In this document: positions 2,298 to 23,481 of the stretch, piece after piece
Position numbering within the stretch: position 1 is the first letter of the stretch
Layout of the letters: each line of letters opens with the position of its first letter
IMG/VR virus record: IMGVR_UViG_3300027771_000104
Location: 1 to 23,481 of that record
DNA length: 23,481 nucleotides
From: a virus
Strand: one strand, 5' to 3'
The notes under the pieces: generated by a model
What the model saw: only the letters and a program-made list of their open reading frames with translations
Database searches by the model: none
Told to the model about the DNA's origin: nothing
Position numbers and translations under genes: made by a program

Positions 2298-5200
2298 ATG
2301 CCTATTAACACAAATTTAAATATTGCACCATATTTTGATGACTTTGACGTCGAAAAACAGTTCTATAAGATTCTGTTTAAGCCAGCTTATGCCGTTCAAG
2401 CGCGCGAGCTGACACAACTTCAAACGATTCTACAAAACCAAGTTGAACAATTCGGTGATAATATCTACCAAGAAGGTAGTATTATTAAGGGTTGCAACTT
2501 TACCGATCTCAACGGATTGCAATTCGTAAAGCTCACTGATAAAACCGGGTTTGACGTAGAGCAATACGTATCTGGTCCAAGCACAGCTATTATTGGTGGC
2601 ATCTTAACAGATATTGACGTCGTATATGAAGTTCAAAACGCGGCAGGCTTGAAAGCAAACATCATTGCTGCAGCTCGCGGTTTTGAAACACGTCCGCCTA
2701 ATCTTAATACATTTTTTATTAACTACCTAAACACTTCTGGTGCTGTTAAAGCATTCGTCAGTGGTGAAGATTTAACAATAACTAAATACGTGTATAACGG
2801 CTCTGTTCTTGTATCAGCACTTCAAGATGGTGGAGCTGGAGCAGACGCTGCTATTTGGCAGATCAACGTTACAGATACTGCTGGTTTAAACTGTGTTGGA
2901 CAATCGTTTGGTATTAGAGCATCTGCGGGTGTTGTATTCCAAAAAGGTCATTTCTTATTTACAGAAGATCAAACACTAGTTGTTTCTAAATACAACAACG
3001 TTCCAAATGATCTATCTGTTGGTTACGAAGTTACTGAAAGTTTAGTTAGTTCTTTACAAGATAATAGTCTATATGATAATGCAAACGGATCACAGAACGA
3101 AAATGCTCCTGGTGCTGATAGGCTTAGAATGGTTCCAACTCTTGTAGTTAAAGATACTGCAATCTCTGATGTTGATTCCGGGTTCTTTACGCTTATTCGC
3201 TACCAAAACGGTTCAGCAGTTAGTTTGCGCGACGTTTCACAGTTTAATGCTATTGCTGATGAGCTTGCTAAAAGAACATATGAAGAATCAGGCAACTACA
3301 TTTTAGATAGCTTTAAAGTTGATATGGATCGCCGAGGTACAGAATTAACTGCACTTGTCGGTAAAGGCACAGCGTATGTTAAAGGTTATCGTGTAGAAAA
3401 CAGTGGCAAAATGTCATTTACTATAGACCAAATTTCTGATACTGCTGTACAACAAAATCAAGCGACATCTGTTGACTATGGTTCTTATTTAGATATAGTA
3501 GATATTAGTGGTACAGTAGACATTAATTACGGTACAGTAGATCTGCAAAATACACTGAGCGGTAAAATCGGTGAAGCTTACGTTAGAAACATTACACCAA
3601 CTAAGATTTATTTGTTTGGTGTTAAAATGGTTGGAAGCAACTCGTTTGACGAGGTTGTTCGTGTTGTTGGTACTTCTGGTGTGATTACAGTAGCGGCAAA
3701 CGCAAAAGTTAAAAGCATCAAAAATTCTCCATTAGTTTTCGAAATAGGTACTCCTTACGTTAAGCAGCTTACCGATATTATTGTTCCAGTTAGGTCTCAT
3801 TCTTCAGTTACTGTTACAAGTAACGTTATTGAGCTTACTGCAGGTATCGATGAAGACTTTGGTTTAGACCAAAATGATATTATTTTTGTTGATACTTCAA
3901 ACACAGTTATTCCGGTTGTATCTGTAGCAAAATCTTTAAACAACACAGTATTAACTCTCACGCTTCAATCAGGCTCTACAGGCGGCGGTGAAGTGTATTA
4001 TAATAAGCGTATGACTAATGCAGATTCTCATAATAAAGCTGCCGTGCAACCATATGTTAAAGTAAATTATTCTACAGCTACTACTAAGTACAGCTTAGGT
4101 TTCCCTGATGTTCACAAGCTTATTAGTGTTACTACAGGCCCTGGTGGAACAGATTTTACTAGCAGTTTTAAGCTTAATACAAACCAGACAGATCACTTCT
4201 ATGATATCTCGTACATGGAATACATCCCAGGTCGTCCACAGCCACAAAACGGTCAACAATTAATTGTACAGGTTGGAGTGTTTGAAATCAATACTTCTAC
4301 TGGCGATTACTTCTTCACAATTAATAGTTATCCAATTGATGATGCAACCACAGTGTTGCCCGGCGGGTTTATTAGATCTTCTGATCTTGAAACTTACACT
4401 GGATCAAACGGGGCGCGTTATAGTTTAAGAAATTGCTTTGACTTTAGACCTTATGTTGATAAAGATCCACTTGTTGATTATACTGATGTTAGTATAGGAG
4501 CTGCAGGAGTTATTACAGCAGCCGTTGGTTCTTATAACAAAACATTCAGCGGCAACTATGCAGTTCCTGCATTAGCATCTACTATTACTTCTGACGTTGA
4601 AAATTACTTGTCACGCGTTGATGTTATCGCTTTTGACTCTTTTGGTGATGCCAAGCTTATTAAAGGTGAAGAAGATCAGAATCCGATTACACCAAAAGTA
4701 AGTCCAGACCAGCTAGTTGTTTCGGAAATTTATATCCCAGGATATCCTGCGTTATCTCAAGCTGAAGCGTCTGCACAAGGTAGATTCTCTTGCGCAGTTC
4801 AACTGAAAGCTGTTGGTACTACAAACTATACAATGCGAGATATTGAAAAGATCGAAAAAAGAATTAAAGGTCTTGAATATTATGTCAGCTTAAATCAATT
4901 AGAGCAAAGTTCAGAAAATCTATTAATATTGGATGAAAACGGGTTAACAAGATTTAAGAATGGTTACATTGTTGATCCAATGAATGATGGACAAATTGCT
5001 AATACTGATGATCCAAACTACAGAGCTGCTATTCACTTTGATAAGCAAATTCTTACACCAGCACTTAATACATTCCCACTAGATTTAAAATATTCATCTA
5101 GCTCTAGCGCATCTATTTTCCCAAGTGTTAATGATGCTGAAATTGCAACACTAAGCAGAAATGCTAATATTAAATTAATGGGTCAACCATACGCAACAAA

Positions 5201-7879: not shown

Positions 7880-9064
7880 ATGTCAAAACCATTAATAGCA
7901 AACATTGTTACAACGCAGACATTTCAAAATTGGTTTGATAAAACTAATGAAATTACCGACCTTGTAAGAGACTCTGTACTTACAGCATCCGTAACTGGTG
8001 ATACAACTACCGGTGATGCTGCTTTACTGGGTGAATTCACTGCAAATACTGTTATAGCATTTAATATTCTTCATACGGATGAATTTGAAGCTAGAACGCC
8101 GGCAGCTACTATTGGCATCACCTCGCCAATTAATGTTACTCCTGCGTTATCTCCTATTGCTGCAACGTTTACGTACGGAGCAACGGGTGCTCGTACCCGA
8201 TATACTGACGGAACAACAGCTTGGGATCTTGGTTACGACAATAGTACAAATGCTAATTTTCAAATTAATCAAGGTAGTGGCGGGCAGTTTTCATTGTCAC
8301 CTGCCGGTGTATTATCAGTACCAAGTGTTATTATTGATACCGATATTACTGTTGATACTATTGTTACAAATCAACTTACAGCAAATAACTTAATGGTTAC
8401 TACTGCGACTGGTTCTTTCTCTGGAACATTTGATGGAAACTTTACTGGTGATGTATATCATCCAGAAGGTAATAAAGTTTTTGAAAATGGTGGTCCTGCA
8501 GCAAACATTCCAGCAACCTTCACAGGTAACGTTCTTGGTACTGTTAGTTCATTAACAAACCATAAAACGACAAATCTTGTAGAAGGCACTAACAAATATT
8601 TCACAGATGCAAGAGCTCAAGCGGCTATAACTGGCGGCACGGGTGTTTCTGTTACTGCTGGTGTTGTTGCTATCGGACAGTCAGTAGGTACAGCGGCTAA
8701 CGTTACATTTGGTTCTGGTGGGACTGCGGTAGCGGTTTCTGCGAAAGGTCAAATTGTTGCAACGGGTGATATTTCAGCATTCGGTTCAGTCTCAGATCGT
8801 ACTCAAAAAGAAAATATTAAACCAATTACCAATGCTCTAAATAAAGTTGAGCAACTTGGTGGTTATACGTTTAACTATAAAAATAAGCCCGATACTCCAA
8901 TGACTGGTGTAATGGCACAAGAGCTTTTAGAAGTTTTACCTGAAGCAGTTTATAAAACTATCGATGGAAATACCGGAGAAGAAATCTACGCCGTAAGACA
9001 TGGAAACATAATCGGATTAATAATTGAAGCGATCAAGGAATTGAACGAAAAAGTAGGTAAATAA
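7880..9064 (+). CDS. Tail fibre protein with C-terminal S74 autocleaving chaperone domain
   Basis: A 394-residue fibre protein. Residues 1-60 (TFQNWFDKTNEITDLVRDSV...) resemble the N-terminal attachment region of many marine T4-like fibres. The middle is Gly/Thr/Ala-rich beta repeat sequence with the common fibre motif 'TNLVEGTNKYFTDARAQAAI' near residues 234-253. The C-terminal 90 residues form a peptidase S74 (intramolecular chaperone) domain: SDRTQKENI at 305-313 fits the SDxxxKxxI motif with Ser305 and Lys310 as the predicted dyad, then 'GVMAQELLEVLPEAV' and the final helix 'NIIGLIIEAIKELNEKV'. In this family the chaperone drives fibre trimerisation and then cuts itself off just before the motif serine, so the mature fibre would be about 304 residues. 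The ATG directly abuts the previous stop. The neighbour is a glycine-rich putative adhesin. Confidence 0.86.
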   Translation: MSKPLIANIVTTQTFQNWFDKTNEITDLVRDSVLTASVTGDTTTGDAALLGEFTANTVIAFNILHTDEFEARTPAATIGITSPINVTPALSPIAATFTYGATGARTRYTDGTTAWDLGYDNSTNANFQINQGSGGQFSLSPAGVLSVPSVIIDTDITVDTIVTNQLTANNLMVTTATGSFSGTFDGNFTGDVYHPEGNKVFENGGPAANIPATFTGNVLGTVSSLTNHKTTNLVEGTNKYFTDARAQAAITGGTGVSVTAGVVAIGQSVGTAANVTFGSGGTAVAVSAKGQIVATGDISAFGSVSDRTQKENIKPITNALNKVEQLGGYTFNYKNKPDTPMTGVMAQELLEVLPEAVYKTIDGNTGEEIYAVRHGNIIGLIIEAIKELNEKVGK

Positions 9065-9999: not shown

Positions 10000-10614
10000 A
10001 TGAATATGCAAAAGTTTAAAGGGTTTTATCCATCTTTAGATAGAGCTTTAGATATTGTTCCAAATGATATGATCCATTCTCTTGTTTTCACTCGAAGACA
10101 AGACGAGTTTAGTGTTGGACTTATTATGCACCAAAGAGGTGAAGAATACCAAGCCAAGTTTGAAGAACTGATTGGATACGTGCTTGGTCCTGAATGGTAC
10201 TCGGCTGCTTATAAAATTGATGTTGCATTCGTGTGTGCAGACTTATTAAGTATCGGCACTGACTCATTAAGAATTTACAAAAACCAACCACAAAATATCC
10301 CGGCAGGTTCTAAAATCGGTGATGATGTAGAAGATTGGCATGAGAACTTAGGTTACTATATCAACACTACAACAAACGAAATTTTAGGAACTAAACACTA
10401 CATCAGAAGTCATCGCGATACTTGCTACAAAATCGACTACTACGACCACTCTGGGAATAAAGTAGCAGAAGATCAAAGAGAAGTTATGGGCGTATACGAA
10501 GACTGGAATGGCCCGCGTGAAATCTATAATATCGCAATCGATGCAGGTGTTTCAACAGTGTTTGCTAAAAAAGTAAGCAAGGATCAAGGTTATTTTATTG
10601 TTCACCAAGTATAA
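10000..10614 (+). CDS. Unrecognised 204-residue protein
   Basis: I do not recognise a family. GAGGAA at 9988-9993, overlapping the TGA of the previous gene, sits 6 bases before the ATG at 10000; a second ATG two codons later is less well spaced. The protein is soluble-looking, rich in Tyr, Asp and Glu, with no signal peptide or membrane helix. A mixed alpha/beta N-terminal half (MIHSLVFTRRQDEFSVGLIMHQRGEEY) is followed by a more polar half with several His, Tyr and Asp residues (TKHYIRSHRDTCYKIDYYDHSG). Unlike its neighbours it is not repetitive or Gly/Thr/Asn-rich, so it looks globular. It is the last gene before the long intergenic region, so it is probably co-transcribed with the fibre and adhesin genes. 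A fibre-assembly helper or a host-interaction protein is possible but unsupported. Confidence 0.8.
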   Translation: MNMQKFKGFYPSLDRALDIVPNDMIHSLVFTRRQDEFSVGLIMHQRGEEYQAKFEELIGYVLGPEWYSAAYKIDVAFVCADLLSIGTDSLRIYKNQPQNIPAGSKIGDDVEDWHENLGYYINTTTNEILGTKHYIRSHRDTCYKIDYYDHSGNKVAEDQREVMGVYEDWNGPREIYNIAIDAGVSTVFAKKVSKDQGYFIVHQV

Positions 10615-10796: not shown

Positions 10797-13700
10797 ATGT
10801 CAAAGATTTCAGAATTAGGTCCAATTAAAGGTGCCAATACTCGCTCTGAAGACCTTTTTGTTATCGTTAACCTTATCCAAGGCGATGACGGTACTAAAAA
10901 CATAACTAGAAAAGAACTTGTTGCTGCGATTCAGTACGAAATCTTTGATAGTATTACAATCACTGGTGGATCAGTTTCTGGTGTTAGAATCTTCAATTCA
11001 GCTATTGAAGATAACATTATGGACCGTAACATTTTCAACAACGGTACTATAGACGACTCACAGATTGTATCAAGTGATATTTCTGGTGGTACAATGACTA
11101 CCACAGAAGTATCAAACGTTGCAATCCTTACATCTGATTTTTCTGACGGTACTGGTAACAACAACATATTCACAAACACAATTGTTGATCAAAGCGAGTT
11201 AAATAACTCAACTGGTAATAATAACATCTTTACCAACTCAACAATTGATGATTCGTTTTATAATAACGTTACCATCGAAGGTGGTACAGCAAACAACCTA
11301 ATTCTTACAAACATCGTAATTGATGAGCTTATTCTCGAAGATGCTTTAATCTCGAATAGTGCTATCGTTACAACAACGTTTGCTAATGGTTCAATTACAG
11401 ATTCTGTTATCTCAGGTAACACATTCCTGTTCGATACATTCATATCTAATTCAGAGATCACTAACACTGATCTAGATGATGTTGATATTACTAATTCAAG
11501 ATTCTCAAATGGTCAAATTTGGGATACACTTATTAGCAATTCAGAAATCATCGATACATCAGCTAATAATATTACCATTACGTCTTCTGCTCTTAATGAT
11601 AGCACTGCAAACAATGTTAATATTACACAGTCTGACTTTTCAAATGGTACTGGTTCTGACAACGTATTCACTAATCCCGTATTAGAAAATGCAATCTTAA
11701 CTGGTGCAATGGATACTGTTGTTGCTACAAATATCTCAATCGGAAGTTCTACTTCTGATGATCTAGTACAACAAAGATCAACTATTCAAAATTCTGATAT
11801 CTCAGAATCAGTTGTTGCTAATTCAACTATTAATCAGTCAGAACTTGTTGACTTTGATATGAATTTAACACAACAATTTGAGCCGATGCTTGACGAAGAT
11901 AGTTATTTTGCTCTGAAGAACGTCAAGACTGGCGATACAGAGAAAATGACTTACCGTCAGTTGTACGATGAGTTTTCTAGAAAGACAGAAAAATCTCTTA
12001 AAGTTCACGTTGCAACAGATGGCGATGATAGTTATCAAGGTAGTATTCTACAGCCAGTGCGCACTTTAAAGCGTGCTGAAGAACTTGCATTACAAAAAGC
12101 TGGTGGATTGTTTGATCGTAACGACATTAATAACGCGGTACACATCTCAGTAGGTCCTGGTACTTACTATGTTGATGAACCAATCATGTTACCTGATGAT
12201 TGTTCAATGACTTCAACAGCAGGTCAGTATGCAACAGTTATTCAGAAGAAAAAGGGATGGGAAAAGACTAACGGTATTCTAGTTGGATCTGGTAACTACG
12301 TTCAAGGTTTCGGTTATATGAACTTTGAAGTAGATAACTTTGACCAACCAGAAGGTGGTTTTGCTATTGCATACCGTCCAGGTGCTTTGTTAAGACGTTC
12401 TCCATATATTCGAGATAGCTCACAGCTTTCAAACTTTAACCGTTTGGATGTTGAACCACCTTTGAATCCATTCAACTCTAAAGGTACAATCCTCGACTTA
12501 GGTCAAGAATTCTACATGTCAGCTGGACACAGTGTTCAAGCGCAATTTGAAGTTGATGACGAAGTAACATTCTCGTCTGGTGCTACAGGTTATGTTTCTT
12601 ACATTGCTGATATTGATTCAGCTCGTCAAATTTACGTTAGAAACCTTAAGGGTAACGTAGAAATTGGTGACATCCTTTATGCTCAACGTGGCGGTACAGG
12701 TACAATTGAATCAATCGGTATTGATGATTTCCCTAACAGACTAGTTGGTCGTGGCGGTGGTTGTCTATTAGCTGACAGAGCAGTACTAGATACTGACTCG
12801 CTATTTACATACGTATTATGTTTTGGTTTTACACCGCGTACTCAAAACGGCACAGGCTACGTTGCCAAAAACGGTGCTGGTGTTAACGGTATCGGTTCCT
12901 TGTCAATCTTTACACGCCAAGCTTTCTTTGCACTAGATGGCGGTCAGATGACCCTGAACAACTCCGGTTCACAGTTTGGTGACATCTCAATGCGAGCTCG
13001 CGGTAGCACAGTTATTATTAGACCGGCTAACGCAAACAAAGTTGAATTAATTGGTGACACAGCTTTTGCAGATTCTCTTGAAGAAAACAAGCAAGCAATC
13101 GTAGATAATGTGGTTGATTACTTAACTGCTAACACAACAACCGGGTTTGATGGTTCGCCAGGACTTGGTTATCAAGGTTATAATGCAGACAAGTGCTTTA
13201 GAGATTCAGGATTAATTGTTGATAGTGCATCTTACGATGTTGCTACAGACAGTAACTATTGGGGACGTTTAAACGGTATCACATATCGTTCGCCTATCTC
13301 ATACATCGTTGTTAACGATCAAATGACTGAAACTGTTGGTTCTATTGAGCATATCAAAGGTGAAATCAATCACATCTTTGCTCAAGAACAAAATGCTGAA
13401 GTGCTATCACGCTTAAACACATCTTTAGATGAATCATTAAATATTCTTCAAAATGGTGTAGAAGCTGCTAATGCTATTACGTTCGCTGATACTGGTGATC
13501 AAGATGCTGTTGCATCCCGTGAAGTATTACAAGATAACAGAGCATTCGTTATTGATCAGTTCGTAGATTGGATTGATAATAACTCTGAATTCTATGCTTA
13601 CGACAGTGCTAAGTGTGAACGTGATATCCAAGAATATATCTTGCCAGCAACCAAGTTTGATATGTTGCTAGATACTAACTATAACGCTACAACTACTGGT

Positions 13701-16700
13701 TTAGCTTATTATGTTAATACTGCAAGAACAACTCTTGAAAATCAAAGAAATGAAACAGTAGCTTCGTTCGAAAGATTACGCAAAACTACTGATAACATTA
13801 TACAAGTTGAAAGCCCAGAAGGTGCAGTTGAAGCTTACTCATCATTCAATACAATTATCAATGCTTTGAATAACACAGGTGCAAAATATACACCAACCAA
13901 AACAACTTACGATCCAGTAACTGGTCGCATGGTTATAACAATTGGTACTCACGACTTAACAGTTGGTAGATATGTAAATCTTGCAAAAGAAAGCTTCACA
14001 TTCACATGCTCAAGCGATAACTTCAAGACTGAGATCAGTCACCCAAGAGCGTCTGAAAAAGCTTATCTAGCTGCGTTGCCAATCATTGAAACATCAGCAA
14101 ACACAATTACTGTTAACCCAGGATTAACTGCTGCTAACTACGAACACAGATTTGTATCTGCTAAAGCTGATGCGGTATCAGTAATTGGCGAACAGATTAC
14201 ATTCTCTGATAACGTTGCAATCTCAGCTGATAAGAGAAATGCACGTAAGCAACTACAAGCTAACAGAGAGTTTATACAAGATCACATGATGGACTGGGTA
14301 GATCAAGAATTCTACTTCTACGACAGCAAGAAATGTCATAGAGATACTGAAGAATATATCTTGCCTGCAGTTCAAAGAGATATGATCCTTGGAACAAACT
14401 ACAACTCAATCCAAACTGGTGCGGCATATCGTACTAAGTCTGGTGAGGTAAGCGTTACTGATCAGTTAACCCAAACAGTTGGTTCAGTTAATTATCTGAA
14501 ATCAGAAACTGCAGCACTAATTACTAATACGATTGCAGAAGATAGAGCTAACCAAGCTTTTGATGAAATGACTAGATTGCTTAATAATAACGGCAAAAAG
14601 TATACTCCTTCAAATGCTGTATATGCTCCGGCTTCAGGTACAACAGTACTTACAATTGGTTCACATGACTTTAACATCGGTGATAACGTTTACATTGAGC
14701 CTAACAGCTTAACGTTTACTTGTGCACTTGATAGCAACGTTACAGAACACACATATCCAACAACACAGTTCATTAACTATACTCCAACTGCTGCTACATA
14801 CGTTCCAGAAACCGGAGAGTTTAGTGTAACTATTGGTACAAATGCTCTTAAAGCTGGTGATCTTGTAGAATTCAAGCCAAGCAGCTTAGTGTTTACATGT
14901 ACTTTGGATGGTAACGTAACAAATCATCCTGCTCCTGAATCACATCACCCTTTCTACAAGAAGCAAATCGTAATTGATAGTGTTGATGGTACAACCATTA
15001 ATATGAACGTCGGTTCAGTTGTAGATGGTGGCGGAGTTCATACCTTTGTATCAGCATCAACTGACGCTGTTCAAGCAGAGAAAAGACATCCTGCTTATAA
15101 GAAACCAGTTACAATTTCTGATAGAGATGCAACAACGATCACAATCAATGTCGGTGAGTCAACTGATACATCAGTACATACATTTGTATCTGCAACTGCT
15201 AACGCGATTCGTGAAGCTGATATGTGGGAAGGTAAGTTTACTCCACAAACTGCATCATACAATCCAGTATCTGGTGACATGGAAATCACAATCGGAAATC
15301 ACGATTTACCAGTTGGTAAGTGGATTGAAATTGCTCCAGAGTCAATGATCTTTAGTTGCGATGTTGGCGGTGTAACAGGTACCGATGCTGCTCCATTATA
15401 CGACCATCCTGCTTATAAAGAGCCAGTTAGAGTAAAATCAGTAACTGCTGATACAATTACTGTAAACGTTGGCAATGCAAACGGTCATGCTAATAACCAC
15501 ACATTCGTAAGTGCTGAAATTGATTGTATCAATGCTAACGCGCTTTACTTTACAGATGCTGCTAAGGTTCAGAAAGCGTTCACACCAACTGATGCAACAT
15601 ACAATCCAGTAAGTGGAGAGTTTGTTATAACTATAGCTGGTCACGATCTTACTACAGCAGATCATGTTGAATTACAGCCACAAAGCTTTGAATTTAGTTG
15701 TGATCCTGGAACCGGTGTTGCTACTGACTTGTCACCACGTATTGGAGACTATGCTTACAAGTTACCATTAGAAATTAGTGCAGTAACAACAGACACACTT
15801 ACAGTAAACGTTGGTAACGCTGGAACATACACCGGTGCTCATACTTTTGTAAGTGCTGATGAAGGTGCTGTAGTTAAGGTTAGTTCTACAACGCAAGGCG
15901 TATATGCTAGCAGAATTCTTCAGAAGAACAAAGCATATCTTCAGGCAGAAGTTACAGCTTGGTTAGAAGATAATTACTTCACATACGATAAAGCTAAATG
16001 TGAGCGTGACACAGGATTTATTCTTGATGCAGTCGCAAGAGATGTATTAACAGACTCTACTGTTAACTCATATTACACAGGTAAAGGTTATCGCATTGGT
16101 ACAGTTGGTGCTGACGCAGTTATTAACGAACAGTTAACACAAACTGTTGGTGCAATTACTTGGCTAAAAGGTAAAATCGCATCTGAAGTATTAACTGATT
16201 CTACTGCAATTGCTCGCTCAAACGCGGCCTTCGATAATATCATCGACATTATGCAAAATGATGTAACAAACGTAGATGATCCAATTTACGGAGACGTTGC
16301 ACTTTCAAACGAACATCGTCAAGCTCGTGGTGCATTACTTACCAACAAGGCGTTTATCCAAAAAGAAATTATTGCTTGGATTACAGCAAACTACCCTGGC
16401 TTCACATACAATACCGCTGCTTGTGAAAGAGATATGGGTATCTTTGTTGATCTTGCTGCTTGGGATGTACAACACGGTTCAAACGCTGGTACGGCTACAA
16501 ATTCAAAACTTTATTTTGAAAACGCTATCCCAGTACTAAGCGACGCAGAAGTTGTTCCAACATCAGAAGCATATTTCTTCGCTGCAGAACTTGTCGGTCA
16601 GATTATTAGAAACGAAGTTGTAACTCCGCTACAAGGTGTAGTAACACAAACGATCATTGAAACAACATCATTTACACCTTCAACTGCAGATTACGATCCG

Positions 16701-19700
16701 GCAACTGGTGACTTTGAAATGTCTATCAGTGGTCACACTCTTGTAAAAGGCGATAGAGTTACACTGGATCCTAATTCATTCACATTCACTTGTGACATGG
16801 ATGGGGACGACGCTGCTAAAACTTATCCACGCCCAGGTTTAGATCCATACGCTAAGAAAACATTCAAAGTTATTGAAGCAGCTTACGCTGGTGGTACAGG
16901 CACAACTGTTAAACTAGACGTAGGAGCTTCTGGTCCAAACAAATACTTCACACCAACTGCAGCAACATACGACGCAGGAACTGGTGTTATGAGTATAACA
17001 GTTGGTCAACACGGTTTAAGAGTTGGAAATGGAGTTGTTCTAAATAATAACTCGTTTACATTTACTTGTGATCAAGATAGCAATGTTACACAGCATACAT
17101 ATCCAAGAGTTGGCGATCCATTAACTGGTAAATCATTATCGATTACTGCGGTTGGTGAAACTCAGCATACACCAACAACCGCAGCTTATTCACCAGCAAG
17201 CGGTGATACAACTATCACTCTTAGTGCTCACGGATTTAGTAATGGCGATTATGTAATGATTGCAGATTACGGATTAGTATATTCTTGTGTACTTGATAAT
17301 AATACAGTTTCTAAAGGTTATCCAAGATCTACAGATTATGCATCTGGCAGATGGTTACAAATTTCTGATGTTACAACAAATACATTCAAATTCAATGTTG
17401 GACCATCAGCTTATAGCGGCGATCACCGATTCGTATCAGCAGTTGCTAACTCTATTAGACGTCAAGATGGTACAATGACATTTAATGTTGGTAACGCTGG
17501 ATCTGCTGCATCCTCTGTACATACATTTGTAAGTGCAACAGCTAATGCCGTTAAGCACGAGCCACAGTCACCACACACATTCGTATCTGTTACTGCCGAC
17601 GCGGTAAAAGTTGCAAATATGGCTGAAGCGTTTACACCAACAGATGTAGCATACGATCATATCTCTGGTGTTATGACACTAACAATTGCAGATCACGGGT
17701 TTACAGAAAAGGATTATGTAATCTTCGCTGAAAATGCTATTACATTGAATTGTTCTAGTAATGGCGGTGGTAATCTATCACACCCAAGACCTACCGATCC
17801 AATCTTTAACAAACCAGTTAGAATTGACTCAGCAACACCAACAACGATTACAATGCAAGTCGGGCCTGCAAAAATTGATGCAGTACATACATTCGTAAGT
17901 GCACTGACTAACGGTGTAAGAAGATCCATTAAACCTGCTGTTGTACAACAGGCTAAAAACTTATTCGCAGGTGTTGGTAATGTTATCCGTGAAAACGACG
18001 GAACAATTCCAGCAATTGTAGAACCAAAAACTAGTGTACACACCGCAAGTTATACATTAACAAGCGAAGCAAACGCTATCACTGGTCAAAAGCCTAAGTA
18101 TCAAACCGAAATAATTCAACACATCAGTGAAGAATATAACGGTCTTGGCTACGATGAAGCAAAATGCCCAAGAGATGTTGGATATATCGTTGATGCAATA
18201 TCAGAAGACTTAGAGTACGGTGGAGATTCAGCTACAGTACATTCTGCAAATTATTATTACCAAGGTACACAAAGTGTCCTTGAGCCATATTCAATGTTAC
18301 CTACTAAGTTGGCGTTCAATCATATTGCTGACGTAGTTGAAAAAATTGTTAAGAACGAAGTAAATGAGCCAATCTTTGGAGCTCGCTTTACTCCAGCTGT
18401 TGGCACTACGTACAATCCAACTACAGGAATGTTAGTAGCAGAAATTGGTACTCACACATTAACAACTGATGATCATATTTGGATGACGCCAGACGCGATT
18501 ACATTCAGCTGTGATACAGGCTCTGGAGCTACTAACCATGCCTCACCAGAAGCACACCATCGCTTCTACAACAAGGCTTGCCCAGTCATTGGGGTAACAT
18601 CAACTACTATTACATTGTGGGTAGGAGCCTTCTCTGGAGGTACTACACATACATTCGTAAGCGCATTAACTGATGGGTTTAGCGAAATTAATGGTAACCT
18701 TGTATATCAAAATGTTGCTCTTGCAGCTGCTGATATAGCAACTGGTACTGAAGCTAAGAGACTTACAAATATTATTGCTGATGTAGTTGATGATCGTTTA
18801 GTTGTTCCAGGATACACCGGATCACTTGATGTTAGCGTTGGTCAACAAATACCTGAAGCGTTACCTATTGCTACTGCTTCTCTTGTTCCTATTATGGAGC
18901 CAAGTAGAACATATGCTCGTAAATCATTACAAGCTAACAGAAGCTTTATTCAAGAAGAAGTTGTTCGTTTTGTAAACGATAACAACTACACTTACGACGA
19001 AGCTAAATGTGCTAGAGACGTTGGATTCATTATTGACGCGATCGCAAGAGATGTTCAGACTGGTTCTGATTATCCTTCACAATATTACGGTCGAGCTTAT
19101 AGAGTTGGTACTGCTCTTGCACAAAATGTTATTAACGAGCAATTATCAGAAACAGTACAAGCTATCGAATATGTACGAGATGATATTCTACCAAGACTAG
19201 CTGGGGTTGCATTAACTAGAGCAACGGATGCTTTCACAAATGTTATCAACATTATGAAAACTGGTCCAGTATCATTTACTTACGACTATGGTCTTGCAGG
19301 AACTGGTAGCTCAGATATTAATGCTACTATGGGCTTAACCTTGAACATTGCATTCTTACAACAGGAAGCAATATCTTGGATCGCAGCAAATCACGGTTCA
19401 TTAGTATATGACGAAGCTAAGTGCAGAAGAGATATTCAAATCTTAGTTGAAGCTACTGCTTTTGATATTAGACACGGTTCTAACGTCGCAATGAGAGACT
19501 TCGTTAAGTTATACTTCGAAAATGGTATTAACGTTGGATTACCTGAAGCTCAAAGAGCACCAACTGCTGCACTATATGGTCACATGGCCGCTGTTGCAGA
19601 GCAAGTTGTTCTTAAACAAGCTGTAACTCCTACAGCTGGAAACACGGTTGCTCAAGTAACTGGTGGATTCGGAAATGTAGTTGGAGCCTCTGGTGTTGAA

Positions 19701-22478
19701 GTTGAGAATCTAATCGTAATCGTACAAGATATCATCGCAGAAGATTCATTGATTAATCTTCCTCAAGCAAGAGAGCCACAAGTACTTGATGGTGCTGCTA
19801 CCGGATATGATCAAGAGGCTTCAGTAGCTATCATCCTTGATCGTAAGGAAGCACTTGGTAGTGCGGTTGTTCAATACTTAAGTGATAAGTTTAGCTTCTT
19901 ACAATACAGTGAAGAAAGATGTCGTCGAGATACAGGATACATTGTTGACGCGATTTCGCATGATATCCAGTACGGTGGTAACGTTGCAATGCACGGAACT
20001 GCAGAGCTTTACTTCAAGAATGCAGTAAATATCTTGCCAATTGACCAACGTCAAGCAACAAGAGAAGCATTCGAATATATGGGTGAAGTTGTACAAAGCG
20101 TTGTTCGTAACGAGTATGTAGATCGTGAGATTGGTAAGCAGTTCTCTCCATCACTTGCTTCTTATAATCCAGACACTGGTGTGTTTACTGCAACACTTGA
20201 AACTGGTCACGGTCTAATCGCTGGTGACTATGTTCAAATTGCTCCAAACAGTATCGTATTTACTTGTAGCCTGGACGGTGATGTTGCATTACACCCAAGC
20301 CCACAAGGAAATGATCCTTACTATAACGCACCAAATATCATTACTGACGTTAGTGGTGATATCATTACATTGCAAGTTGGCAAGGTTCCTTACGGTAAAG
20401 GTGGTGGTGCTCATACATTCGTAAGCGCTTCACTAAATGCTATTTCCCACATAACTGGAAACTCAGTTAAACAAGAAATGCCTACACTTGCTGCAAGAAG
20501 AACAATTGCTACAGAAGCTATGAATCTTGCTTTAATGCTTGCTAAGGTTGCAGATGATAATAATCCTGGAGCAATCCCTGCAAGAGTTGATGCATTCACT
20601 ACTTGGATCGACGCAGACATCCTTGCTTCAAAGGAACTTGTTGATAGTGCTACTGTTCAAATGGCAAGCGATCTTCAAGGTTACATTTACGACACTTACA
20701 ACGGTGTTAGTTATTCTAAAGAGAAATGTCGTAGAGATGTTGGTACGATGATCGATGCTATTTCGCACGATGTTAACTACACAACAAACTATGCATCAGT
20801 ACGAACTGCAGAGCTTTACTTTGTTAACGCGGTATCAATATTACCTGCCGATCAAAGACAACAAACTGCTAAGTTCTACACTCAAATGTCTAATACTATC
20901 GGCGATGTTGTTGTAGGTGCTACGGTCGACGCATCAATCTCCAAGCACAGCTCTAAAGTACAAGATACATCCATCGCAGTTGCTACAGCGGTTGAAAAAG
21001 AAGAAGTTAAGGACTTGATTCGCATTGTTGAAGATGCAATTCAAAGAGATAGCATGGATGCTATACCAGCAATCATTGATCCAGATACTTCTTGGGTTAA
21101 CGCTGGCAAGATTGCAGCAGCCGCAGCAATTGATGATAACCTTGACGAATTAGCTGATGATATTACTCAGTTCTTGAAAGACACGTTTACCGTTATTGAT
21201 TACAGTAAAGTGAAATGTCGTAGAGATGCTGGTTATATCGTTGATGCAATGTCTTGGGACTTAAACTACGGTGGTAACTTAGCAACAAGATGGAATGCAA
21301 ACTTCTACTTCTGGAACAACGAGTTACGTTTACCTGAAGACACAAGAGTGGCAACAGCACAAGCATATCGCCAACTTGGTAATATTGTTTCTCAGGTTGT
21401 TGCAGGTAATTATCCTGGTCAAACAACTAGAACTAATCTTGGAACTGATATCCAAGAAGCTCAAGCAATTGATCTTGGTAATATCTTCTATAACGCCTTG
21501 TTCTATAACGATGTTAACCAACTTGGAAGAACTATTAATCCTAACTTTGGTTTCGATACTGACAAATCATACAAGTTTGCTAAAGATATTCTTGATAGTA
21601 ACAAAAACAAGATCCAACGTGAAACACAGCGATTCATTACTTCTGAATACAAGTTCATCGATCTACCTAAGACTTATCGCGATGCAGGTAACTTCCTTAA
21701 AGTTATCCAAAACGACTTTAAATCTGTTGATGCACTTGGAGTTGAAGGTTCTGATATAGCTTCAAGATCTTTTGTTGGCGCATTGTTTAATATTGATGCT
21801 AAGCACGTATTCCCAGTGTTTAATCCACCAGCAACCTTTGCTGATTGGCGCAAGCTAAGATTTAAAGGAACTGTTGCAAACACGGCAGCTCGTGATCTGT
21901 TAACTGGCATGAAGCGTTGGGACGCGTACATTATTTCGACAAACGCATCTGGCAATCGTTATGTAGGTGATATCATTCATTGGACAGGAACAACTTGGAC
22001 CGCATCAGGTGCAATTGGAGCTAATAATACTGATCTACTTGATTCGTTTACTGGCGCCTGGACACAGATGAAAACTTATATAAATAACAATATCGCTACA
22101 GATCAACCGCAAAGAGATATGGTATCCGAATTGATAGATAACGTAATTATCGATAGTGTAATTAGGCCAGACTTCTTGGTCTTTGGATCACTGGTTGAAT
22201 CAATTGCTCACCAGTTTAACGGAGCTTCGGCAGGTGTTAACAGAAACGCCTTGCCACTTAACTTCAGAAACGTTGGTTCAGCAATTGGTGCAAACGCTTC
22301 GGTACTGTCAGAAAACGGCGGTCGTATCAGGTGGTCTGGATCAGACGAATTAAATAACCAGTACTTCGCGCGTGGTTTGAAGATTAATGGTAGAACGGGA
22401 CGTATCGAAGGTAGACCGTTTACATCATCAGTAAGAAAACTTGCAAGAAGAGCATCTAACTCAAGGGCATCTCTATAA
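10797..22478 (+). CDS. Giant modular tail-fibre-like protein, 3893 residues
   Basis: One uninterrupted frame of 11.7 kb; I infer a virion appendage protein. Modules in order: N-terminal motif (1-47, KISELGPIKGANTRSEDLFVI); an Asn/Ser/Thr-rich short-period region like a beta-solenoid (about 55-345); a second copy of the N-terminal-type motif (about 363-395); a pectate-lyase-like beta-helix (about 402-752, starting VHVATDGDDSYQGSILQPV, with GPGTYYVDEPIMLPDD near 454); then about 2900 residues of two interleaved repeat families, helical 'KCxRD' modules and beta-sandwich-like modules ending HTFVSA; finally a C-terminal region (about 3657-3893) with LPLNFRNVGSAIG, GGRIRWSGSDELNNQYF and a very basic end (RKLARRASNSRAS). 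Similar modules occur in large structural proteins of marine T4-like phages as I recall them. It lies behind two late promoters and overlaps the next gene by one base (TAATG). No enzymatic residues were recognised, so the beta-helix may bind rather than cleave glycans. Confidence 0.8.
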   Translation: MSKISELGPIKGANTRSEDLFVIVNLIQGDDGTKNITRKELVAAIQYEIFDSITITGGSVSGVRIFNSAIEDNIMDRNIFNNGTIDDSQIVSSDISGGTMTTTEVSNVAILTSDFSDGTGNNNIFTNTIVDQSELNNSTGNNNIFTNSTIDDSFYNNVTIEGGTANNLILTNIVIDELILEDALISNSAIVTTTFANGSITDSVISGNTFLFDTFISNSEITNTDLDDVDITNSRFSNGQIWDTLISNSEIIDTSANNITITSSALNDSTANNVNITQSDFSNGTGSDNVFTNPVLENAILTGAMDTVVATNISIGSSTSDDLVQQRSTIQNSDISESVVANSTINQSELVDFDMNLTQQFEPMLDEDSYFALKNVKTGDTEKMTYRQLYDEFSRKTEKSLKVHVATDGDDSYQGSILQPVRTLKRAEELALQKAGGLFDRNDINNAVHISVGPGTYYVDEPIMLPDDCSMTSTAGQYATVIQKKKGWEKTNGILVGSGNYVQGFGYMNFEVDNFDQPEGGFAIAYRPGALLRRSPYIRDSSQLSNFNRLDVEPPLNPFNSKGTILDLGQEFYMSAGHSVQAQFEVDDEVTFSSGATGYVSYIADIDSARQIYVRNLKGNVEIGDILYAQRGGTGTIESIGIDDFPNRLVGRGGGCLLADRAVLDTDSLFTYVLCFGFTPRTQNGTGYVAKNGAGVNGIGSLSIFTRQAFFALDGGQMTLNNSGSQFGDISMRARGSTVIIRPANANKVELIGDTAFADSLEENKQAIVDNVVDYLTANTTTGFDGSPGLGYQGYNADKCFRDSGLIVDSASYDVATDSNYWGRLNGITYRSPISYIVVNDQMTETVGSIEHIKGEINHIFAQEQNAEVLSRLNTSLDESLNILQNGVEAANAITFADTGDQDAVASREVLQDNRAFVIDQFVDWIDNNSEFYAYDSAKCERDIQEYILPATKFDMLLDTNYNATTTGLAYYVNTARTTLENQRNETVASFERLRKTTDNIIQVESPEGAVEAYSSFNTIINALNNTGAKYTPTKTTYDPVTGRMVITIGTHDLTVGRYVNLAKESFTFTCSSDNFKTEISHPRASEKAYLAALPIIETSANTITVNPGLTAANYEHRFVSAKADAVSVIGEQITFSDNVAISADKRNARKQLQANREFIQDHMMDWVDQEFYFYDSKKCHRDTEEYILPAVQRDMILGTNYNSIQTGAAYRTKSGEVSVTDQLTQTVGSVNYLKSETAALITNTIAEDRANQAFDEMTRLLNNNGKKYTPSNAVYAPASGTTVLTIGSHDFNIGDNVYIEPNSLTFTCALDSNVTEHTYPTTQFINYTPTAATYVPETGEFSVTIGTNALKAGDLVEFKPSSLVFTCTLDGNVTNHPAPESHHPFYKKQIVIDSVDGTTINMNVGSVVDGGGVHTFVSASTDAVQAEKRHPAYKKPVTISDRDATTITINVGESTDTSVHTFVSATANAIREADMWEGKFTPQTASYNPVSGDMEITIGNHDLPVGKWIEIAPESMIFSCDVGGVTGTDAAPLYDHPAYKEPVRVKSVTADTITVNVGNANGHANNHTFVSAEIDCINANALYFTDAAKVQKAFTPTDATYNPVSGEFVITIAGHDLTTADHVELQPQSFEFSCDPGTGVATDLSPRIGDYAYKLPLEISAVTTDTLTVNVGNAGTYTGAHTFVSADEGAVVKVSSTTQGVYASRILQKNKAYLQAEVTAWLEDNYFTYDKAKCERDTGFILDAVARDVLTDSTVNSYYTGKGYRIGTVGADAVINEQLTQTVGAITWLKGKIASEVLTDSTAIARSNAAFDNIIDIMQNDVTNVDDPIYGDVALSNEHRQARGALLTNKAFIQKEIIAWITANYPGFTYNTAACERDMGIFVDLAAWDVQHGSNAGTATNSKLYFENAIPVLSDAEVVPTSEAYFFAAELVGQIIRNEVVTPLQGVVTQTIIETTSFTPSTADYDPATGDFEMSISGHTLVKGDRVTLDPNSFTFTCDMDGDDAAKTYPRPGLDPYAKKTFKVIEAAYAGGTGTTVKLDVGASGPNKYFTPTAATYDAGTGVMSITVGQHGLRVGNGVVLNNNSFTFTCDQDSNVTQHTYPRVGDPLTGKSLSITAVGETQHTPTTAAYSPASGDTTITLSAHGFSNGDYVMIADYGLVYSCVLDNNTVSKGYPRSTDYASGRWLQISDVTTNTFKFNVGPSAYSGDHRFVSAVANSIRRQDGTMTFNVGNAGSAASSVHTFVSATANAVKHEPQSPHTFVSVTADAVKVANMAEAFTPTDVAYDHISGVMTLTIADHGFTEKDYVIFAENAITLNCSSNGGGNLSHPRPTDPIFNKPVRIDSATPTTITMQVGPAKIDAVHTFVSALTNGVRRSIKPAVVQQAKNLFAGVGNVIRENDGTIPAIVEPKTSVHTASYTLTSEANAITGQKPKYQTEIIQHISEEYNGLGYDEAKCPRDVGYIVDAISEDLEYGGDSATVHSANYYYQGTQSVLEPYSMLPTKLAFNHIADVVEKIVKNEVNEPIFGARFTPAVGTTYNPTTGMLVAEIGTHTLTTDDHIWMTPDAITFSCDTGSGATNHASPEAHHRFYNKACPVIGVTSTTITLWVGAFSGGTTHTFVSALTDGFSEINGNLVYQNVALAAADIATGTEAKRLTNIIADVVDDRLVVPGYTGSLDVSVGQQIPEALPIATASLVPIMEPSRTYARKSLQANRSFIQEEVVRFVNDNNYTYDEAKCARDVGFIIDAIARDVQTGSDYPSQYYGRAYRVGTALAQNVINEQLSETVQAIEYVRDDILPRLAGVALTRATDAFTNVINIMKTGPVSFTYDYGLAGTGSSDINATMGLTLNIAFLQQEAISWIAANHGSLVYDEAKCRRDIQILVEATAFDIRHGSNVAMRDFVKLYFENGINVGLPEAQRAPTAALYGHMAAVAEQVVLKQAVTPTAGNTVAQVTGGFGNVVGASGVEVENLIVIVQDIIAEDSLINLPQAREPQVLDGAATGYDQEASVAIILDRKEALGSAVVQYLSDKFSFLQYSEERCRRDTGYIVDAISHDIQYGGNVAMHGTAELYFKNAVNILPIDQRQATREAFEYMGEVVQSVVRNEYVDREIGKQFSPSLASYNPDTGVFTATLETGHGLIAGDYVQIAPNSIVFTCSLDGDVALHPSPQGNDPYYNAPNIITDVSGDIITLQVGKVPYGKGGGAHTFVSASLNAISHITGNSVKQEMPTLAARRTIATEAMNLALMLAKVADDNNPGAIPARVDAFTTWIDADILASKELVDSATVQMASDLQGYIYDTYNGVSYSKEKCRRDVGTMIDAISHDVNYTTNYASVRTAELYFVNAVSILPADQRQQTAKFYTQMSNTIGDVVVGATVDASISKHSSKVQDTSIAVATAVEKEEVKDLIRIVEDAIQRDSMDAIPAIIDPDTSWVNAGKIAAAAAIDDNLDELADDITQFLKDTFTVIDYSKVKCRRDAGYIVDAMSWDLNYGGNLATRWNANFYFWNNELRLPEDTRVATAQAYRQLGNIVSQVVAGNYPGQTTRTNLGTDIQEAQAIDLGNIFYNALFYNDVNQLGRTINPNFGFDTDKSYKFAKDILDSNKNKIQRETQRFITSEYKFIDLPKTYRDAGNFLKVIQNDFKSVDALGVEGSDIASRSFVGALFNIDAKHVFPVFNPPATFADWRKLRFKGTVANTAARDLLTGMKRWDAYIISTNASGNRYVGDIIHWTGTTWTASGAIGANNTDLLDSFTGAWTQMKTYINNNIATDQPQRDMVSELIDNVIIDSVIRPDFLVFGSLVESIAHQFNGASAGVNRNALPLNFRNVGSAIGANASVLSENGGRIRWSGSDELNNQYFARGLKINGRTGRIEGRPFTSSVRKLARRASNSRASL
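10960..11835 (+). repeat. Short-period Asn/Ser/Thr-rich coding repeats (beta-solenoid-like)
   Basis: About 290 residues of the giant protein consist of short imperfect units such as 'xxNSxIxDSxFSN' with hydrophobic residues at a short regular spacing, as in pentapeptide-like or other beta-solenoids. A longer unit recurs: GTGNNNIFTN (ends 11177), STGNNNIFTN (ends 11240) and GTGSDNVFTN (11646-11675). Their DNA differs at many third positions, so the repeats are old or held by protein selection. A rigid trimeric stalk is the likely structure. Confidence 0.65.
12000..13052 (+). other. Pectate-lyase-like beta-helix segment of the giant protein
   Basis: Residues about 402-752. The opening 'VHVATDGDDSYQGSILQPVRTLKRAEELA' fits the common start of pectate-lyase-3-like phage beta-helices (DG.D...G....P..TL..A...A). 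'NAVHISVGPGTYYVDEPIMLPDDCSM' follows, then repeated short strands with Gly turns up to 'GDISMRARGSTVIIRP'. No conserved acidic cluster that would prove glycan hydrolysis was identified. In phage tailspikes this fold binds or cuts host polysaccharide. Confidence 0.68.
15903..16637 (+). repeat. Two-module super-repeat, copy 1
   Basis: A type I helical module is followed directly, without a beta module, by a type II module. The protein runs from YASRILQKNKAYLQAEV through KCERD, YRIGTVGADAVINEQLTQTV, AACERD and KLYFENA to NEVVTPLQG. It aligns end to end with copy 2 at 18912-19640. Confidence 0.75.
18648..20428 (+). repeat. Exact short direct repeats at module ends
   Basis: CATACATTCGTAAGCGC occurs at 18648-18664 and 20412-20428; its first 14 bases also occur at 17886-17899. 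All are in the same reading frame and encode HTFVSA. A second pair, AAATGTCGTAGAGATG, is at 20724-20739 and 21213-21228 in the KCRRD motif. Such in-frame identities could seed recombination that adds or removes whole modules. Confidence 0.7.
18912..19640 (+). repeat. Two-module super-repeat, copy 2
   Basis: The partner of 15903-16637, about 3.0 kb downstream and of nearly equal length (729 against 735 bases). It runs from YARKSLQANRSFIQEEV through KCARD, YRVGTALAQNVINEQLSETV, KCRRD and KLYFENG to KQAVTPTAG. Protein similarity is clear along the whole length, but codons differ widely, so the duplication is not recent. Confidence 0.75.
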
Positions 22479-22900
22479 TGGCTATTACAACAATCGTAAC
22501 ATCACAAGCACCTGATGCTAAACCGGTCGCCAAATCGTTTACTTTGACGACCAACTGGCAAACAATGATCGAGGTACCCAACTATGAGGTACCGGAACTT
22601 GTATTTGGTGGATCAACAACAGTAGAACCCGGAGTAGGCGAAGTTATTTCGCCTCTCATTCTGTGTAACTTTACAGCAAGCACTGTTGCAGTTGATGTAA
22701 GAACTCATAGAGAAGACGTAAATGCTGAGTTTTGGATTATAAGAAACTTGCAAATCCCAGCGTATGACACAATCCCATTACCACTTAACGGCCAATTCTT
22801 TAAATCTGGCGATTTGCTAGAAATTAAATGTGATACAAACTTAGCAGTAGATGCTTCGTTATCATTCACCCTCGGTCAGTCTGAAGAGGATGATGTATAA
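22478..22900 (+). CDS. Small beta-rich virion structural protein, function unknown
   Basis: A 140-residue protein whose ATG overlaps the giant gene's TAA in TAATG (22476-22480). AAGGG at 22463-22467 is a plausible ribosome site. The sequence alternates polar and hydrophobic residues (KSFTLTTNWQTMIEVP, SPLILCNFTASTVAVDVRTHR, AEFWIIRNLQIPAYDTIPLPL, GDLLEIKCDTNLAVDASLSFTLGQ), which suggests a single beta-sandwich with no membrane segment. Proteins of this appearance sit next to fibre genes in marine T4-like phages as I recall them, with no defined role. Coupling to the giant gene suggests it is made in step with it and may cap, anchor or trimerise it; that is inference. It ends in TAATG with the collagen-like gene. 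Confidence 0.78.
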   Translation: MAITTIVTSQAPDAKPVAKSFTLTTNWQTMIEVPNYEVPELVFGGSTTVEPGVGEVISPLILCNFTASTVAVDVRTHREDVNAEFWIIRNLQIPAYDTIPLPLNGQFFKSGDLLEIKCDTNLAVDASLSFTLGQSEEDDV

Positions 22901-23481
22901 TGGCTTTTAGATCTATTAGCGGGAACAAGATCGTTGGACAGGGACAGCCGCAAGCTGTTCCTATTCAATTAGATCCGGCACCCTACACTGGTGCGGTAGC
23001 TTATGGCTCCGATGGTTTAATTTATGTTTCTAACGGAACAACTTGGAATGCAGTTGGCGCTGGTATTCAAGGTACAACAGGTATTCAAGGCGACGATGGA
23101 CAACAAGGTCTACAGGGCGATTATGGTCCTGGATTTGATGTTATTGGTTCAGTTGCTGATGTAGATGCAGGTGGTGATCCACAAGCAACTCTTAACACAG
23201 CATTTGCATCAGCAACAACAGGTCAAGCAGCAATTGACGACGCCGATGATGAGCTTTGGGTTTATGACGGAGCAACATGGATTAACGTTGGTTCATTCCG
23301 CGGTGTTCAAGGCTTTACTGGTAACCAAGGAACGCAAGGCGTACAAGGTACTATCGGTGAAGAAGGTATTCAAGGTTCTCGTGGTTTCCGCGGTTTCCAA
23401 GGAACGCAGGGTATTCAAGGCACAACTGGTATTCAGGGTACCCAAGGTATTCAAGGAGTCCAAGGAACGCAGGGTGTACAA
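22900..23481 (+). CDS. Collagen-like repeat virion protein, 5' part; 3' end outside window
   Basis: The ATG at 22900 overlaps the previous TAA by one base, with GAAGAGGA at 22883-22890 as ribosome site. The frame stays open for 194 codons to the window end. N-terminal region: MAFRSISGNKIVGQGQPQ and a short domain containing AYGSDGLIYVSNGTTWNAVG. Then a short Gly-X-Y block (23062-23133, GIQGTTGIQGDDGQQGLQG), a globular insert ending in ELWVYDGATWINVGSF, and a longer Gly-X-Y block from 23302 onward (RGVQGFTGNQGTQGVQG... GIQGTTGIQGTQG). Gly-X-Y repeats form trimeric collagen-like stalks in phage fibres. The repeats are rich in Gln, Thr and Ile with no Pro, so stability must come from other contacts. 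Probably a fibre or head/tail decoration; the C-terminal head is not visible. Confidence 0.82.
   Translation, partial: MAFRSISGNKIVGQGQPQAVPIQLDPAPYTGAVAYGSDGLIYVSNGTTWNAVGAGIQGTTGIQGDDGQQGLQGDYGPGFDVIGSVADVDAGGDPQATLNTAFASATTGQAAIDDADDELWVYDGATWINVGSFRGVQGFTGNQGTQGVQGTIGEEGIQGSRGFRGFQGTQGIQGTTGIQGTQGIQGVQGTQGVQ

Follow-up and report, generated by a model that had tools for sequence, protein, structure and literature searches.

Genes at the Locus

The window, by which we mean the whole stretch of 23,481 bases analysed here (positions 1 to 23,481 of the IMG/VR virus record IMGVR_UViG_3300027771_000104), carries in this order a gp8-like gene, a VrlC-like gene, a small ORF, an S74 fibre gene, two ORFs, a giant ORF, a small ORF and a collagen fibre gene. 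The assigned genes and the N-terminal parts of the giant protein are:

626-2284, plus strand: gp8-like baseplate wedge protein (phrog_438, E = 5e-47)
2298-7688, plus strand: VrlC/DUF4815-like giant protein (PF16075, E = 2e-43; phrog_358)
7880-9064, plus strand: tail fibre with S74 chaperone (PF13884)
10797-22478, plus strand: giant ORF, 3893 aa, 422 kDa, matching PHROGs tail fibre and virion structural families
10797-10946, plus strand: N-terminal segment of the giant protein, aa 1-50, presumed attachment end; the same sequence starts a relative (G006)
10947-11891, plus strand: pentapeptide-repeat-like solenoid, aa 51-365, with a weak match to 2j8k
11982-13031, plus strand: presumed right-handed beta-helix, aa 396-745, read from the sequence only
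22900-23481, plus strand: collagen-repeat fibre, running off the window (PF01391)

A gene for a subtilisin-type peptidase (PF00082) at 2-586, cut by the window start, lies beside the baseplate genes and possibly encodes a virion protease. Immediately before the giant gene lies an ORF of 204 aa (10000-10614) that has no match in Pfam or PHROGs and none in four related contigs; a role as lyase or chaperone was considered and dropped, there being no family match.

The giant ORF is a single uninterrupted ATG-to-stop frame encoding 3893 aa (421.75 kDa) and takes up almost exactly half of the window, as an earlier reading of this DNA, made from the sequence alone, had stated (half of the window in one frame, 3893 residues, about 420 kDa). 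Its best PHROGs match is annotated as "tail fiber protein" (E = 1e-174 over 13 stretches), others as "virion structural protein"; with the T4-like cyanophage tail families PHROGs 5342 and 701 the values are 1e-174 (13 stretches) and 5e-153 (14 stretches). Homologues in public records likewise bear the label "virion structural protein". The gene order and the PHROGs assignments together indicate a tail or baseplate appendage, and thus support the sequence-only reading in its view of the product as a giant modular tail-region protein. Proteins of such size do get built into virions: for the giant "long tail fibre" of S-CREM2, encoded by a 14.9-kb gene, 286 unique peptides were found in cyanophage virions (PMC10665884). 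Virion proteomes have also been published for S-SM1, S-PM2 and Syn9.

The long tail fibre proteins gp37 and gp34 of T4 resemble the giant protein in their presumed host-contact role and in the tail location that we infer for it, but no sequence relation was found and the folds are different. Neither an S74-type chaperone nor a gp37-like C-terminus was detected in the giant ORF with Pfam and PHROGs, the S74 domain being located in the neighbouring fibre.

Modular Architecture of the Giant Protein

The hydrophobic period of 5 residues in the solenoid is that of pentapeptide-repeat beta-helices; the best PDB match, the pentapeptide-repeat protein 2j8k, is non-significant (E = 0.21). The presumed beta-helix matched no Pfam family. 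These N-terminal parts are followed by about 2900 residues of bead-like modules of two kinds, H and B. Trimmed profile HMMs recognised 11 B modules, 8 of them contiguous and 3 split by insertions, and 12 H modules, 11 with the motif CxRD and a degenerate one. All of the following lie on the plus strand and were located with profile HMMs; H module 7 was also modelled with a deep alignment.

13059-13427, plus strand: H module 1, Cys aa 800
13497-13832, plus strand: H module 2, Cys aa 940
13884-14180, plus strand: B module, contiguous
14211-14558, plus strand: H module 3, Cys aa 1180
14598-14765, plus strand: nest 1, outer B N-part, columns 2-57
14775-15074, plus strand: nest 1, complete inner B
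15078-15212, plus strand: nest 1, outer B C-part, columns 56-101
15234-15533, plus strand: B module
15576-15875, plus strand: B module
15876-16253, plus strand: H module 4, Cys aa 1735, inside the AF2 model of aa 1690-2276
16293-16658, plus strand: H module 5, Cys aa 1876, inside the same model
16668-16940, plus strand: nest 2, outer B N-part, columns 2-86
16944-17162, plus strand: nest 2, middle B N-part, columns 2-74
17160-17459, plus strand: nest 2, complete innermost B
17472-17555, plus strand: nest 2, middle B C-part, columns 75-101
17571-17609, plus strand: nest 2, outer B C-part, columns 89-102
17628-17921, plus strand: B module
18036-18392, plus strand: H module 6, Cys aa 2457
18384-18683, plus strand: B module
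18897-19256, plus strand: H module 7, Cys aa 2738, predicted phycobiliprotein fold (AF2)
19299-19658, plus strand: H module 8, Cys aa 2876
19800-20144, plus strand: H module 9, Cys aa 3042
20136-20447, plus strand: B module
20598-20969, plus strand: H module 10, Cys aa 3311
21084-21434, plus strand: H module 11, Cys aa 3474
21561-21719, plus strand: degenerate H, aa 3589-3641, lacking the CxRD Cys

The 11 H modules score 80-119 bits, as against 14 bits for the degenerate one. Re-counting with the profile HMMs gave the order and the numbers (12 H, 11 B) that had been read from the sequence. The protein has 27 cysteines, one in each CxRD-containing H module (11), one in each B module (11) and 5 elsewhere; the 22 in modules are each conserved in position.

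B Modules Inserted into B Modules

Searches of Pfam and of the PDB sequences revealed no recognisable relative of the B module, which is predicted to be a beta-sandwich-like domain of no known family. The partial B units that the earlier reading had set aside do exist, yet they are not leftovers outside the count: they are complementary halves of B domains into which other B domains are inserted. In nest 1 the order of the profile columns is outer 2-57, inner 2-101, outer 56-101, and in nest 2 it is 2-86, 2-74, 1-101, 75-101 and 89-102, the fragments closing like brackets, with 0-6 residues between the pieces. All three breakpoints in the window are thus complementary and in last-in-first-out order. 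The same holds in relatives: in 32 non-redundant ORFs 100 of the 125 closing B fragments match the innermost open fragment, as compared with 48.7 +/- 5.2 after shuffling of the fragments (maximum 67 in 500 shuffles), and this nested order we consider well supported. The insertion sites cluster at three preferred columns, about 57, 74 and 86. The nests of the window are two and three deep, whereas in relatives nesting is at least four deep (e.g., L069, L071 and L078).

The split units could instead have arisen by successive partial tandem duplications without nested folding; the order 2-57, 2-101, 56-101 can indeed also be generated by two such duplications, and four ORFs (L103, L107, L114 and L116) parse poorly as nests. 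We regard this explanation as very unlikely in view of the complementary last-in-first-out breakpoints, the excess of matching closers over expectation and the restriction of the breakpoints to three columns. It is also opposed by the AF2 model of aa 1690-2276, in which nest 2 is predicted with high confidence (means of pLDDT over 10 residues of about 67-98, mostly >88). At the site of nest 2, nine relatives (L006, L011-L016, L019 and L022) have a single uninterrupted B, which in L012, L013 and L016 best resembles the joined outer B and in the others is ambiguous.

H Modules and Phycobiliproteins

H had been described as an unnamed helical module, a description that structure prediction, Foldseek and profile comparison with PDB sequences overturned in favour of a predicted phycobiliprotein-fold domain. 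A template-free AF2 model of H module 7, built from 115 aligned modules (pLDDT 85, pTM 0.79), has six helices, at 10-21, 23-36, 43-63, 67-81, 87-109 and 114-130, which together with the Foldseek result correspond to the globin core helices A-B-E-F-G-H. When the PDB was searched with this model, all 50 matches listed were phycobiliproteins (probability 1.00, TMq 0.57-0.73, rmsd mostly 2.5-4 A), with overall sequence identities of about 13-26% and a best E-value of 7e-3, which is modest despite the high probability and TM-score. The second model, that of aa 1690-2276, was based on a different alignment and again gave phycobiliprotein matches, and the same fold is present in BFVD models of tail proteins from S-H9-1, S-CAM1, S-WAM2, ACG-2014d, S-PM2 and S-ShM2.

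Sequence comparisons point in the same direction. The Pfam family PF00502 (Phycobilisome) matches the whole giant protein above its gathering score and 16 of the 115 single H modules, the next family only 2. When the 11 modules of the window were made into a profile, phycocyanin alpha chains ranked top among all PDB sequences; the 115-module profile, searched against 177,635 PDB sequences, yielded a best E of 7e-4 and 58 matches up to E = 10, the large majority of them phycobiliproteins. In the latter alignment the CxRD motif of H, present in 11 of the 11 window modules, falls on Cys84-x-Arg86-Asp87, the bilin-attachment site of phycobiliproteins. An hhalign comparison of H with CpcA, motif included, gave 94.2%, and against phycocyanin the context of the motif aligned without gaps as far as the GG at C+18/C+19. 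Where the chain of H kinks from its first helix into its second, at a conserved Asn, we see the equivalent of the A/B junction of phycocyanin.

Since the 115 rows had been collected by the pattern C.RD, so that C, R and D are invariant by construction, conservation was rescored with a model masked at these three columns. Among non-redundant IMG/VR H modules Cys was found in 132 of 133, Asp in 132 of 133 and Arg in 116 of 133; among H modules of cyanophage isolates the counts were 30, 31 and 15 of 36, respectively, the equivalent of Arg86 thus being lost in 21 of the 36, and some phage modules have C.QD instead. With C, R and D masked, however, CpcA ranked only 5th of 1001 when compared with 1000 shuffles, i.e., it was not separated from them, and with 8 columns masked it ranked 24th. 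The sequence link between H and phycobiliproteins therefore appears to lie mainly in the KCxRDxG stretch and its context, and the evidence from predicted models for the fold is separate from this motif-based evidence.

Phycobiliproteins (the alpha and beta subunits of phycocyanin, phycoerythrin and allophycocyanin; PF00502) thus share several traits with H: a globin core (predicted in H), Cys-x-Arg-Asp in the corresponding place, GG at Cys+18/+19 and an Asn at the bend that joins helices one and two. Unlike them, H is arranged in tandem within one chain of 3893 aa and shows weak similarity outside the motif. The modelled module begins at the first long helix and lacks the N-terminal X-Y helical hairpin, for which the tandem spacing of 138-166 aa leaves little room. 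In phycobiliproteins this hairpin pairs the alpha and beta subunits. The bilin-binding globins found outside phycobilisomes, which are related to phycobiliproteins, have motifs (CXRD or CXQD) of the types seen in phage H modules (CxRD or C.QD), but they belong to cells and are associated with genes of bilin biosynthesis (PMC10151467).

The failure of CpcA in the masked-profile control and the identity of about 13-26% are what one would expect if H were an unrelated helical bundle that only resembles the globin of phycobiliproteins and had acquired CxRD by convergence. This appears unlikely, if less so than the other alternatives considered here, for the fold class, the motif and the ungapped context up to GG at C+18/C+19 all agree, and phycobiliproteins fill all 50 of the PDB fold matches listed. 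From the models we are confident that H is predicted correctly as a phycobiliprotein-type globin fold, and homology to phycobiliproteins is probable.

A known non-virion fold of the modules had been named in advance as an argument against a phage appendage. Structure prediction gave H just such a fold, which by the terms of the sequence-only reading would count against it, yet the tail-region context was judged to outweigh this, the conclusion being that the fold was recruited into tail-region proteins.

Distribution among Phages

The size of the protein, earlier described as extreme, turned out to be ordinary among its relatives, ORFs of 3300-7300 aa being routine in cyanophages. A tblastn search with the module region found 344 phage records, and one with a single H module 143, in both cases named as Synechococcus, Prochlorococcus, "Cyanophage" or "Marine" phages. 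Of the 16 cyanomyophages of PMC3037559, 13 gave matches to the H profile, the ORFs concerned measuring 3300-7300 aa; P-SSM2, S-SM2, S-SSM7, the pelagiphage HTVC008M, T4 and KVP40 gave no match. In cyanophages H-bearing frames attain 7312 aa in P-SSM4 (region 70560-75602) and 7124 aa in P-SSM7 (region 69265-71973). Giant tail proteins with H and B modules are widespread in T4-like cyanophages. H also occurs in a contig (G018) whose gp23 is only about 30% identical to those of T4 and cyanophages, and is therefore not restricted to Kyanoviridae.

Giant tail proteins of cyanophages are already known, as unnamed families. Those in PHROGs 5342, 701 and 4527, with S-PM2p218 and P-HM1 gp7, share with the giant ORF the H modules, the size class and tail/baseplate neighbourhoods. 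The window lineage differs from them in a diverged gp8, in module regions that are roughly 30% identical and in the lack of psbA in the window-type fragments examined. For S-PM2 the GenBank record (AJ630128, 155000-182000) locates about 16 tRNAs within S-PM2p218, the giant H gene, where ARAGORN found none; it found 9 around cpeT, so that the annotated coordinates look misplaced.

Co-occurrence with the Bilin Lyase CpeT

In 24 of 24 complete cyanophage isolates, H modules are accompanied by the bilin lyase CpeT or both are missing, 18 having both and 6 neither. Among the cyanomyophages of PMC3037559 the 13 with H all have CpeT and the 3 without H have none, as judged by profile search and by the cpeT row of that paper's table, which supplied part of the presence calls. 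CpeT of P-SSM7 and S-ShM2, missed at the first threshold, scored above the cut-off over neighbouring pieces, and for Syn1 the table shows a dash, but the record of that phage contains an annotated cpeT. Further isolates with both are MED4-213, S-SCSM1, S-SSM4, S-RIM44 and ACG-2014f, the lyase of the last being below the Pfam cut-off and aligning with the CpeT family; P-TIM68, Bellamy and S-SRM01 have neither. An unbiased IMG/VR sample anchored on gp23 consisted mostly of short fragments and was left out of the count.

This agreement raises the question whether H carries covalent bilins on the CxRD Cys, attached by the phage CpeT in cyanophages or by self-assembly, so that the appendage would be pigmented. 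The near-invariance of the equivalents of C84 and D87 with the masked model is in line with it, as is the closeness of cpeT to the giant H gene in S-PM2 and Syn1, where it lies upstream at a distance of 0.7-1.5 kb, a gene for a 2OG oxygenase and either small ORFs or tRNAs intervening; in other phages cpeT is distant. Self-assembly has a precedent in globins with CXRD that bind bilin without a lyase (PMC10151467). Against covalent bilins on H, the trait requires only three changes on a gp23 tree, i.e., three concordant independent changes, and phylogeny alone could therefore explain the 24 of 24. The occurrence of heme oxygenase and bilin reductase does not follow that of H (ho1 and pebS are found in P-SSM2 and S-SSM7, phages devoid of H), the Arg86 equivalent is frequently lost in cyanophage modules, and neither CpeT nor heme oxygenase nor bilin reductase was found in window-type contigs of up to 102 kb. 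We consider bilin attachment to H unlikely, and equally so the uses that could be proposed for it, namely sensing of light or redox state, quenching of UV or stability. A shade more doubtful still is the idea that the virions of T4-like cyanophages, and perhaps also those of the window lineage, are pigmented, the target of CpeT being the phage's own tail protein and not the phycobilisomes of the host.

Lineage and Host of the Window Phage

The gp8 of the window is about 22-29% identical to that of any isolate (Synechococcus phage BUCT-ZZ01 and phages of Sinorhizobium, Caulobacter and Stenotrophomonas). Among 21 fragmentary contigs of relatives psbA was found in G001 alone and CpeT in none; in 28 contigs heme oxygenase and bilin reductase were not found except in G002. 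The latter (148 kb, the contig of L116) contains B and no detectable H, and has heme oxygenase and bilin reductase without CpeT, like P-SSM2. In the window-type contigs among these fragments, which are up to 102 kb long, none of the four genes was detected, which makes the idea of a biliprotein weaker for the window phage than for cyanophages. A link of bilin genes to the window was dropped for the same reason, and a cyanophage origin of the window is no more than a possibility.

The 115-row H alignment proved too diverse for a genome scan; with a tighter one, H was found in six contigs of MAGs: three belong to a single Rhodobacteraceae bin, and the others come one each from another Rhodobacteraceae, a Proteobacteria and a Planctomycetaceae MAG. 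The three from one bin (L326-L328 in Water_Bin34) have coverages of 88, 67 and 6, and their H modules share 64-87% identity with the query; they are probably several phages binned together. All six look like binned phage contigs, and as host evidence for Rhodobacteraceae they are weak.

Proposed Function and Significance

Of the readings considered, we favour with moderate confidence a baseplate- or tail-attached adhesion or reach appendage of an uncultured marine T4-like phage, composed of globin and beta beads. The N-terminal segment, the solenoid and the presumed beta-helix would anchor it on the baseplate or tail, and the bead-like modules would extend from the anchored N-terminus. The H beads would be phycobiliprotein-type globin domains without the X-Y hairpin, their near-invariant Cys and Asp perhaps being kept for fold stability or for some ligand; the B beads would grow whenever an entire B domain is inserted into one of three loops of another. 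Such a body should provide length and many surface loops, with nesting making the chain bulkier at fixed points, and the chain would most likely serve as a long modular device for adhesion or reach in host contact.

In the open-access papers covered we found no description of phycobiliprotein-fold domains in a viral tail protein, nor of a retained attachment motif or recursive B-in-B insertion in giant tail proteins. Nesting of B in B, at least four deep in relatives, is a mode of appendage growth that linear repeat counting misses. Where a phage contig matches PF00502, the gene concerned may encode a tail protein and not be a metabolic gene of phycobilisomes. The bilin genes of cyanophages have been called "a mystery", Prochlorococcus having no intact phycobilisomes (PMC3037559); if H keeps a ligand pocket, these genes would gain a candidate target that is encoded by the phage itself.
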